Shown here in pieces: positions 16,099-52,462 of a stretch of 64,000 nucleotides of DNA. Within the stretch, counting starts at the first letter, position 1; each line of letters starts with the position of its first letter. The stretch lies in NCBI RefSeq assembly GCF_000982955.1, contig NZ_KQ058881.1:1-64000 (forward strand). The letters are read 5' to 3'. Source of the stretch: Micromonospora sp. HK10. GTDB taxonomy: Bacteria > Actinomycetota > Actinomycetes > Mycobacteriales > Micromonosporaceae. The position numbers were made by a program, and so were the translations under genes. The notes beneath the pieces are model-generated. The model was not told the origin of the DNA, did not search any database, and saw nothing but the letters and a program-made list of their open reading frames with translations.

Positions 16099-16194
16099 GG
16101 AGGCGTTCAGGCGGCTGGTGCCCCTCCCGGTCTTCAAAACCGGTGTGGTCCGGGACCCGGGCCAGGCGGGTTCGATTCCCGTCCGTCTCCGCCA
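16099..16194 (+). tRNA. selC: tRNA-Sec (anticodon UCA)
   Basis: This 96-nt tRNA has anticodon TCA at 16134-16136 in the loop CTTCAAA, closed by CCGGT/ACCGG. The acceptor is long and the variable arm has an 8-bp stem, as in selenocysteine tRNAs. The T arm is GCGGG-TTCGATT-CCCGT, and the 3' CCA (16192-16194) is encoded. The eighth acceptor pair looks mismatched (T-C). A -10-like TTAAGT lies at 16086-16091. It decodes the UGA of the formate dehydrogenase after SelA converts Ser-tRNA-Sec to Sec-tRNA-Sec. Confidence 0.93.
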
Positions 16195-50583: not shown

Positions 50584-51588
50584 TCACCCGCCGCTCAGCA
50601 CGTTCGCCAGCGCCTGGTTGGTCCGGTTCGACCGCACCGCCGCGCGCTGCTGACCCGCCGTCACCTCGATGTACGTCTGCGACGACGCCAACGACGCGTG
50701 CCCCAGCAACCGCATGATCTCCGCCGCGCTCGCCCCGTCCTCGGCCAACCGGGTCGCGAAGGTGTGCCGCAACGCGTGCAGCCGCGCCCCCTTCGGCACC
50801 CGGTCACCGATGCCCGCCCGCCGGAAGCACGACTCCACCAGGTACTGCAGGCCACCGCGGCGCAGCGGCGCACCCCGCCGGTCCACCAGCAACGCCGAGT
50901 CCGGGCGTACGCTGCGCGCCCCGAAGCGCCGCCGCCGACTGTCCAGGTAGTCCACCAGCACCCGGTCGACCGCGGCCTCGATCGGCACCGTACGCGGACG
51001 CCCGCCCTTGCCCGCCACGTCCACCCGCCGCTCACCGTCCCGGCCGGCCACCGACGCCACCCGCAGCGCCAACAGCTCCGACAGGCGCAGCCCGGCGCAG
51101 AGCGCCAGGGCCAGCACCGCGAGGTCCCGCTCCGGCCACGGGTCACGCTGCCGGCCCCGCTCGCGCGCCACGGCGGCGAGCAGCTCCTCCGGCGTGTCCT
51201 CACCGCGCAGCGGCTTCGGGCGGGGGAGCGGAGCGCGTGGCCGGCCGACCGCCGGCATCGGATTCCCCGGTACGACGCCCTCGGCGACCAGGAACGTGAA
51301 GAAGCTGTTCCACGTGGACCAGGCGCGGTGCACGGAGGCGGTGGCGCGGGGCGCGGCGAACCGCGCGAACGCCCGCCGCATGACCTGGGGGGAGAGGGTG
51401 GAGATCGGCACCCGGCCGATGGGGAGGGGAGTGGTGCCGTCCGGGCCGGTCAGCGCCGCGACGATCGTCAGGTCCCGCCGGTAGGCCGCGAGGGTGTGGG
51501 GGGAGGGCTTGCGGGTGGCCCGGTCGGTCAGGAACTCCTCGATCAACCTGGCTACCGACCCGTCCGCAATATCGTGCATAAGGGACAT
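50584..51588 (-). CDS. tyrosine recombinase / integrase
   Basis: This 334-residue XerC/D-type recombinase has an N-terminal SAM-like core-binding domain (VARLIEEFLTDRATRKPSPHTLAAYRRDL split by its loop). The catalytic domain carries arginine in GLRLSELLAL, HALRH, LGHASLASSQ and the tyrosine nucleophile in TYIEV. All five catalytic positions look intact. The ATG sits inside a 10-6-10 palindrome. The protein could act on that site or be autoregulated by it. It is next to a broken gene, which suggests a small mobile unit. Confidence 0.88.
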   Translation of the reverse strand: MSLMHDIADGSVARLIEEFLTDRATRKPSPHTLAAYRRDLTIVAALTGPDGTTPLPIGRVPISTLSPQVMRRAFARFAAPRATASVHRAWSTWNSFFTFLVAEGVVPGNPMPAVGRPRAPLPRPKPLRGEDTPEELLAAVARERGRQRDPWPERDLAVLALALCAGLRLSELLALRVASVAGRDGERRVDVAGKGGRPRTVPIEAAVDRVLVDYLDSRRRRFGARSVRPDSALLVDRRGAPLRRGGLQYLVESCFRRAGIGDRVPKGARLHALRHTFATRLAEDGASAAEIMRLLGHASLASSQTYIEVTAGQQRAAVRSNRTNQALANVLSGG

Positions 51589-51597
51589 TATGCACGA
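51572..51597. repeat. 10-6-10 palindrome at the recombinase start (candidate core or operator site)
   Basis: Arms TCGTGCATAA (51572-51581) and TTATGCACGA (51588-51597) are perfect inverted copies around GGGACA. This arm-spacer-arm geometry is like the core sites of tyrosine recombinases. It is notably AT-rich for this genome and contains the recombinase start codon. Confidence 0.7.
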
Positions 51598-51621
51598 ATA
51601 TTCACATTCACGTGAGCCTGG

Positions 51622-52053
51622 GTGGCAGGGGAGCGGGCGAAACCGGTAGAACCGGCGCCGATCGCCGGCGGGCTACGCGTGCAGGACACGGCCACCGGGG
51701 GTGTCGGTGACGCCCGGCTGCTGCGCCGGGCTGGAGGACTGGCGGGAGTGGACGTCCGTCCTGGACGGCGGCCAGCCCTGGCTGGGACACGATCCCGGTC
51801 CGGAGGTCGAGGTGCGCGGCGCGCTGATCCGCGTCTGACAGCACGGTGGCCGCCGCCGGAGCGGAGCGGACCGGTTGTCGAGTTCGCGCGGGCCGACCTG
51901 CCGGGGCTGCTGGCCCGCGTCCACGCCGACCTGGTGGGATTTCTCGCCCGGCTCGACGCGTGGACGCGTACCGCCGGCCTGGCGGCGAGAGGGAGGCTCT
52001 GGTGGCGGGCCCCGCTGACCCTGCCGGAGGAGGGCCGGCTCGGGTCTACTTGA
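51622..52053 (+). pseudogene. frameshifted remnant of a conserved hypothetical gene
   Basis: The frame from the GTG at 51622 gives a protein-like start (PAPIAGGLRVQDTATGG). At the G5 run 51697-51701 the meaningful reading moves to another frame (VTPGCCAGLEDWREWTSVL, then GQPWLGHDPGPEVEVRGAL), which ends at a TGA at 51837-51839. Protein-like coding then resumes in the first frame (VVEFARADLPGLLARVHADL). At least two lesions are needed, so the gene is decayed, or the assembly has errors here. Function of the parent family is unknown. Confidence 0.55.
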
Positions 52054-52054
52054 C

Positions 52055-52068
52055 ATAATGTACATTAT
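52055..52068. repeat. 14-bp perfect palindrome related to the recombinase site
   Basis: ATAATGTACATTAT matches the centre of the recombinase palindrome (ATAAGGGACATTAT, 51578-51591) at 12 of 14 positions in the same orientation, 477 bp away. TTGACA at 52050-52055 abuts it. Confidence 0.7.
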
Positions 52069-52084
52069 CGAACCGCAAGCCGGC

Positions 52085-52462
52085 TCAGATCAGCTGCACG
52101 TAGGCGGCCCGCCACTGGGGTGAGGGATCCGCGCCGAGGCTCGTCCAGTATTCCCGGCCGGTGACGATCGTGCCGTCGCGCACCGTCCAGAACGACGCCA
52201 CGCGGTGCACCCCCATCGTGTCGTGCGGGACCTCCACCTCGGAGACCACCGCGTCGCCGTCGGCGACGATCCGCAGCACCTTGATCGCCCACCCCTCCGG
52301 GTACTCGGCGTTGATCCGCACGTAGTTGTCGCGGCCCACGATCCGCTCGGCGCTGACCGGCCACTCCACCACCAGGTCCTCGGCGAGCAGCGCGGTGAGC
52401 CCGGGCCAGTCGCGGGCCTGCATGCGATCCCACAGCTGCTGAACAATCTCGGTCGGCTCCAT
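52085..52462 (-). CDS. NTF2-like (SnoaL-type) small protein
   Basis: This 125-residue protein has the cone-shaped NTF2 fold pattern: QLWDRMQARDWPGLTALLAEDLVVEWP, then VGRDNYVRINAEYPEGW and SFWTVRDGTIVTGREYW. These proteins bind or isomerise small ligands; no function assigned. CAGGAT lies 6 nt before the ATG with no ribosome site, suggesting leaderless expression. Confidence 0.78.
   Translation of the reverse strand: MEPTEIVQQLWDRMQARDWPGLTALLAEDLVVEWPVSAERIVGRDNYVRINAEYPEGWAIKVLRIVADGDAVVSEVEVPHDTMGVHRVASFWTVRDGTIVTGREYWTSLGADPSPQWRAAYVQLI

Follow-up and report, generated by a model that had tools for sequence, protein, structure and literature searches.

A third Xer-type recombinase and a symmetric dif-like site beside the chromosomal dif of Micromonospora sp. 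HK10: a probable second recombination module of actinobacteria

Genes and sites at the locus

The window, i.e. the whole 64-kb stretch of DNA analysed here, has 67-81% GC per kilobase and belongs to the 6.9-Mb genome of Micromonospora sp. HK10, which is assembled in 256 contigs. On its minus strand a third Xer-type tyrosine recombinase, in the following called rec, is encoded at 50584..51579, giving a protein of 331 aa from the conserved start. The start codon of this gene is overlapped by a symmetric dif-like core site, called pal (51572..51597, without assigned strand). It is followed by the remnant of a plus-strand gene of unknown family (51622..52053), whose open reading frame has no Pfam match and whose 3' end runs into the 28-bp chromosomal dif site at 52048..52075, which reads CGGTTCGATAATGTACATTATGTCAAGT on the minus strand. 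Elsewhere in the window, ARAGORN located a tRNA-Sec gene at 16099-16194.

The pal site is a perfect 10-6-10 inverted repeat, TCGTGCATAA-GGGACA-TTATGCACGA, in which the spacer GGGACA of the plus strand corresponds to TGTCCC on the rec strand. A first-pass annotation of this DNA had rightly placed the start codon of rec inside such a palindrome. An upstream in-frame ATG at 51588 was rejected as the start, since it is common to only 3 of 30 orthologues viewed. The start conserved in the genus is instead the ATG at 51579-51577 (MHD...); in the 30 genus orthologues viewed pal overlaps the rec start, with the shared ATG in its right arm. The same annotation had reported the second, 14-bp perfect palindrome ATAATGTACATTAT at 52055-52068, and the sequence agrees: the centres of the two palindromes are 477 bp apart and 12 of 14 positions match. 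The expected rarity of such AT-rich words was also found, as TAA-N6-TTA occurs exactly twice in the window, namely at these two sites. Perfect 10-base arms alone are not rare, further GC-rich ones being present; it is the AT-rich form that is rare. With up to one mismatch, TGCATAA-N6-TTATGCA occurs once in the whole genome of the strain and its reversed control not at all, the reversed control being matched in 4 of 61 genomes. The dif pattern (19 bases, up to three mismatches) likewise gave one match in this genome and none for its control, which was matched in 2 of 61 genomes.

The 14-bp palindrome is the core of the chromosomal dif site. The 28-bp sequence shares 23 of 28 bases with the dif site suggested for Frankia alni (PMC3025954) and 24 of 28 with the putative dif of Actinoplanes SE50/110 (PMC3364876); both are given as predictions in the available text of these papers, and in that of PMC3025954 no experimentally confirmed actinobacterial dif was at the disposal of its authors. 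The dif pattern is present in all 37 genomes of the genus, as a single match in each except G034 (two matches), in 22 of 24 other genomes of the order and in 149 of 200 genomes of the family. Its position is 0.463-0.498 of the circle away from dnaA in all of the 19 single-contig genomes for which the distance was worked out (dnaA was located in 28 genomes). One of these 19, G082, has dif opposite dnaA and no rec. Hence, the site lies at the replication terminus and exists also without the recombinase. At 52048-52075 the 28-bp consensus, the single copy and the location opposite the origin come together.

Between dif and pal the first-pass annotation had seen a frameshifted gene. This is supported by genome G661, in which a homologue of the remnant (39% identity, E 1.4e-8) forms an open frame of 198 aa in the same dif-to-rec interval, dif and pal being about 0.7 kb apart there. 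Among the 35 other genus intervals compared, no blastn relative was found; the intervals of 36 genus genomes fall into 16 groups without blastn relation, the largest with 17 members. The gene on the other side of dif (52085-52462) was seen in no genus locus but that of the window (1 of 37), in a search of stretches of up to 17 kb, some of which end at contig ends. The DNA around the sites turns over and the sites stay.

The recombinase and the symmetric site in other genomes

The rec protein matches the Phage_integrase domain PF00589 (4.8e-26) and the SAM-like domain PF02899, and its best PDB profile match is XerD (1a0p, 1.4e-38). Against the NCBIfam models of XerC and XerD it scores 161 and 140 bits, well below the cut-offs of 335 and 330, which the XerD-like protein of the same genome also misses for XerD with 307 bits; with 73.9 bits against a cut-off of 267 it is not a XerS proper either. 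The residues R165, K191, H268, R271, H294 and Y303, which we take to be the catalytic residues of the tyrosine recombinase family, are invariant in 39 of 39 homologues, as in an active enzyme. A tree of 52 proteins places rec together with the plasmid homologues in one clade (100/98); XerC, XerD and a fourth Xer-like protein fall outside it. Rec is not the only Xer recombinase of the chromosome: in a scan with the XerD model, 16 of 18 genomes showed, besides rec, both a XerD-like protein (287 bits or more) and a second canonical, XerC-like match (190 bits or more), with the labels XerC and XerD assigned by score and tree, as only 2 of the 18 pass the curated cut-off. The second match is split in two pieces in three of these genomes. 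In G397 and G460 only one canonical Xer match exceeds 190 bits. The fourth Xer-like protein is encoded beyond the window (G000:C233:74913-75767), about 23 kb from dif; its scores with the XerD model are 146-164 bits. Of 10 family genomes checked, 9 (all but G104) encode it at a distance of about 20-33 kb from dif, and in the tree, where it has three members, it forms a separate clade. Phage records gave weak Xer-like matches only, with at most 31.5% identity among the matches listed (20 of 50).

Within the genus an orthologue of rec is present in 34 of 37 genomes, one being a contig-end fragment and one being in two pieces. No clear absence was found in the genus; the contigs of G005 and G009 break off within the expected gene. 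The pal pattern with up to one mismatch occurs once in 36 of the 37 genomes, the exception being G028, where the contig with dif ends 0.87 kb from dif. In the family, pal was found in 111 of 200 genomes and rec (E up to 1e-40) in 117. Of these 111, seven carry pal without a rec match: in G005, G009 and G249 the site is at a contig end, and G070, G080, G153 and G178 carry the pattern, with one mismatch where listed, without a gene match or such an explanation. The G070 site is an 8/12 palindrome; the genome gave no gene match, and the stretch contains no dif. Extra pal matches with one mismatch are present in G181, G197 and G203, which have the gene. In a class-wide sample rec was found (E up to 1e-35) in 33 of 394 genomes, 3 of them from the genus itself, 1 from f15, 3 from f8 and 26 from f31, a group that comprises Actinorugispora and, as we infer, Nocardiopsis and relatives.

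The three elements are found together in relatives from several actinobacterial families. Around the gene or dif, 98 loci from 97 genomes were fetched, and in 96 of them the gene or dif is linked to a dif-like site whose arms are inverted (7 or more of 12 positions symmetric) and whose central region is short. Wherever all three were present (dif with up to three mismatches), pal was situated between dif and the gene (81/81 loci), at a median distance from dif of 459 bp (range 237-1809), with G068 as an exception at 5384 bp. The other 17 loci were left out of this count: the gene is absent from the fetched stretch in L095, L099, L100, L118 and L155, nine loci are without dif, the best dif of L149 and L218 has four mismatches, and pal is absent in L164, where a decayed form can be recognized by eye. 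A homology search provided a second set of 80 named loci, the best 80 of at least 393 relatives, spanning Actinokineospora, Amycolatopsis, Lentzea, Saccharothrix, Kutzneria, Kibdelosporangium, Kribbella, Nocardiopsis and others. Here dif was found in 74 and pal, at 8/12, in 70, and pal was located between dif and the gene in 67/67 loci at this threshold and in 74/74 if seven 7/12 sites are counted. The 13 loci left out at 8/12 comprise these seven, three having pal without dif in the stretch, and L325, L339 and L343, which have neither; with the 7/12 sites included, pal is linked to the gene in 77 of the 80. The sets of 81 and 67 loci are not fully independent, because at least two genomes are shared (Actinokineospora spheciospongiae and Actinorugispora endophytica). 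In Saccharothrix luteola the locus was met on two contigs of one assembly (L312 and L313) with the same dif/pal spacing, which is either a duplication or an assembly artefact.

Near dif of genomes lacking the gene, pal was not found in 46 of 46 loci, namely 30 loci of class members, 15 further gene-free loci and G080. The symmetry threshold was 8/12 for the set of 15 and 7/12 for the others. Forty of these controls were viewed over about 1.5 kb on each side of dif (less on one side in L038, L247 and L252), five over about 4-6 kb and G080 over 12 kb, so that a pal farther off would be missed; among the positive loci two have pal more than 1.5 kb from dif (G071 at 1.8 kb, G068 at 5.4 kb) and four have it at 1.4-1.5 kb. 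The first-pass annotation would have given up its proposal if both palindromes were conserved in relatives lacking the recombinase. This applies to dif and does not apply to pal.

In pal the spacer length is fixed at 6 and the inner arms ATAA/TTAT, as in dif, are nearly constant across families, while the spacer sequence is free (70 spacers in 131 distinct sites). Farther out, 65 of 94 distinct sites have complementary bases at arm position 8, and likewise 65 at position 9, against means of 49.8 and 49.1 and maxima of 64 and 66 in 2000 shuffles; positions 10, 11 and 13 stay within the shuffles and position 12 shows no covariation. The 94 sites had been picked by their inner 7 bases only, and relatedness inflates the counts. 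Covariation among the 131 sites was left aside, because those had been picked for symmetry, which inflates complementarity in addition to relatedness. The arm covariation may thus be taken as supporting evidence for pal and no more. In two cases the spacer of pal is exactly inverted between relatives: L292/L301 versus L304 (TGGCAA/TTGCCA) with collinear near flanks, where two substitutions could also suffice, and L321 versus L322 (TGACCG/CGGTCA) with collinear flanks, which would need four. Such inverted spacers could have arisen through rec acting on the symmetric arms, or else through template switching at the inverted repeat.

Readings of the site and its recombinase

In our best reading the locus, at the replication terminus of a high-GC actinomycete, carries beside dif a second, symmetric dif-like site, pal, with a dedicated third recombinase; we consider this reading, together with the reactions proposed for it below, moderately probable. 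The site is unique in 36 of 37 genus genomes and lies beside dif at the terminus, but the link between pal and dif is not universal, because of G068 and of five genomes of the Nocardiopsis group (G397, G302, G567, G551 and G460). In these five, dif was found neither near the gene nor genome-wide at up to two mismatches, a scan that also misses dif sites with three mismatches (e.g. those of G426, G535 and G574); the gene and pal are kept (L219-L223, L259-L262), with a weak, 7/12 site in G551.

Alternatively, pal might be an operator only, at which rec itself or another regulator represses the rec gene at its start, the closeness to dif being inherited linkage. The location of the start codon in the right arm in the 30 genus orthologues viewed agrees with this idea, as does the position of pal near the gene start in most other Micromonosporaceae loci and in many of the Pseudonocardiaceae. 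Moreover, TAATAT or TAATGT stands where the -10 element of a leaderless transcript would be expected, and in G068 pal stays with the gene at 5.4 kb from dif. However, in 31 of the 98 loci over 250 bp separate pal from the start of the gene. In the Nocardiopsis group, with 24 loci and dif resolved in 19 (G527 and G590 included), pal keeps to dif rather than to the gene: it lies 300-951 bp from dif, the gene start follows at about 0.3-6.9 kb from pal, and in L204, L205 and L209 pal and gene are on the other side of dif, with pal downstream of the gene in L204 and L209. The same was seen in genus g26, where pal is 237-285 bp from dif and the gene 1.3-9.4 kb from pal; in an alignment of five of these loci dif and pal are the conserved blocks. 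As up to 9.4 kb can separate the gene from a pal that stays near dif, pal is more than an operator. The constant spacer of 6 bp, the dif-like inner arms and the intact catalytic residues are also at odds with a function restricted to repression. Given this decoupling of pal from the gene, the operator-only reading was rejected as unlikely. Its kernel can be retained within the genus, since pal overlaps the start of rec there, and binding of the recombinase to its own promoter region, as suggested in the first-pass annotation, is plausible.

Another possibility is an integrative element at dif, domesticated or still active, with rec as its integrase and pal as a leftover attachment site. Homologues of rec are indeed found on large mycobacterial and Rhodococcus plasmids, with 37-42% identity among the 30 matches listed, and these have palindromes of their own. 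A similar palindrome was found upstream of the gene in four of the five plasmid loci read: it is clear, with 10 or 11 of 11 positions, in M. crocinum, pMK12478 and Rhodococcus DN22 p1, and weaker (9/11) on the M. paragordonae plasmid, while pMYCCH.02, the fifth, has an imperfect palindrome by eye. The differences in dif-pal DNA between species, with the unrelated interval groups mentioned above, would also suit an element. Nevertheless, the hybrid sites expected from integration at dif were not seen: dif keeps its own arms and pal its symmetric ones, and the 6-bp spacers of dif and pal are identical in neither orientation in any of 85 loci. Presence and absence among close relatives is not observed either, as the gene is conserved in the genus and the three genomes without it have contig ends at the locus (G005, G009 and G028). 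Finally, the gene is located outside the dif-pal interval. A decaying mobile element was therefore rejected on the basis of this conservation, and the integrative reading as a whole appears rather improbable.

It might also be supposed that rec on pal serves as an architectural helper of XerCD at dif without itself recombining DNA. The distances between pal and dif would be compatible with looping, as they amount to 0.24-1.8 kb throughout the sets of 81 and 67 loci, with the single exception of G068 (5.4 kb). Against a fixed complex speak the variability of this distance and the occurrence of pal on either side of dif. An accessory role would also hardly account for invariant catalytic residues, for a palindrome at plasmid homologues or for the retention of pal in some lineages without detected dif, and we regard it as quite improbable.

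According to the first-pass annotation, the segment between the palindromes would be inverted or excised by their recombination with each other, for which the likeness of the inner arms (12 of 14 bases in the window) had spoken. This was rejected as hardly tenable, because the spacers are never identical, dif is also present in many genomes without rec, and the comparison of orientation across relatives that the annotation had called for gave the same dif-gene orientation in 33 of 33 genus loci holding both, so that nothing flips in the genus. Nothing in the data pointed to a unit that inverts or is excised. From that two-site view the notion of pal as a core-like site going with rec survives, while the palindromes are not partners bounding a recombination unit. 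As their spacers are never identical, crossover between dif and pal is not expected, and the two look like sites of separate reactions.

We thus return to pal as a second, symmetric site with its own recombinase, and lean towards a single-recombinase Xer/site module, comparable to XerS/difSL, that is kept beside the canonical XerCD/dif system. Two Xer-type sites would then stand side by side at the terminus, an asymmetric dif for XerC plus XerD and, about 0.5 kb off, a symmetric 26-bp site for the third recombinase. A homotetramer of rec is predicted to bind two copies of pal, one on each sister chromosome or both on a chromosome dimer, and to exchange strands across the 6-bp spacer. Sister chromosomes would in this way be resolved or unlinked at the terminus by a second reaction, comparable to the one for which XerS/difSL alone suffices in streptococci. 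In Micromonosporaceae binding at pal should in addition repress the rec gene, because the site overlaps its start in the genus. The basis for this proposed mechanism is large-plasmid resolution, where, according to the available part of PMC5357621, the recombinase is usually encoded next to its own site. As a counterpoint, XerC-like and XerD-like proteins are both present in 16 of 18 genomes, hence a second system is not obviously needed.

More tentatively, and with somewhat less than even confidence, many actinobacteria may have two resolution systems at one terminus, XerCD/dif and a plasmid-type single recombinase with a neighbouring symmetric site, the latter perhaps having taken over in lineages such as those of G397 and G460, in which neither dif nor a further canonical Xer was detected. 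In these two and in G302, G567 and G551 the second system may have replaced XerCD/dif; alternatively, these genomes may have a diverged dif or linear chromosomes.

Comparison with known Xer systems

Chromosome dimer resolution is usually described with one recombinase pair or one single recombinase acting on one dif site. A dedicated third recombinase with a site near dif suggests a second reaction at the terminus of large, antibiotic-producing actinobacteria, and its retention near dif in Micromonosporaceae, Pseudonocardiaceae and the relatives of Nocardiopsis would permit a clean genetic test. Rec and pal might perhaps also become a new symmetric tool for site-specific recombination. For the reading of genomes the locus is a caution that a "tyrosine integrase" beside dif is not necessarily part of a mobile element. 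Among the papers listed in a literature search, none was seen to describe, for actinobacteria, either a second site next to dif or a third recombinase. In its available text the genome paper of Actinoplanes SE50/110 (PMC3364876) mentions dif and contains neither "XerC" nor "tyrosine recombinase", and the available text of the Kutzneria albida genome paper mentions dif and does not contain the whole word "recombinase".

The canonical XerC/XerD system belongs to the same enzyme family and its dif site has the same inner core, ATAA-N6-TTAT. However, rec falls into a separate clade, and the arms of pal are symmetric whereas dif combines one XerC arm and one XerD arm. Large-plasmid resolution modules resemble the present locus in that the recombinase gene adjoins its site, and the plasmid homologues of rec are also accompanied by a palindrome; unlike these modules, rec and pal are found beside dif in Micromonosporaceae, Pseudonocardiaceae and the Nocardiopsis group. 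Single recombinases acting on one dif site are represented by XerH/difH and by XerL/dif of the Legionellales, as described in the available parts of PMC5357621 and PMC9765430. According to the same sources, XerL of Coxiella is plasmid-encoded beside a site and its chromosomal site is palindromic, an arrangement comparable with that of the plasmid homologues of rec. XerH and XerL are, however, described there as the Xer system of their hosts, whereas rec accompanies XerCD/dif. Another close parallel is XerS/difSL of streptococci and lactococci, in which one tyrosine recombinase gene is likewise linked to its own dif-like site. As far as the available part of PMC5357621 reports, XerS has no partner recombinase and its 31-bp site has a central region of 11 bp, whereas the Micromonospora locus has a 6-bp spacer between symmetric arms and the canonical XerC, XerD and dif are also present.
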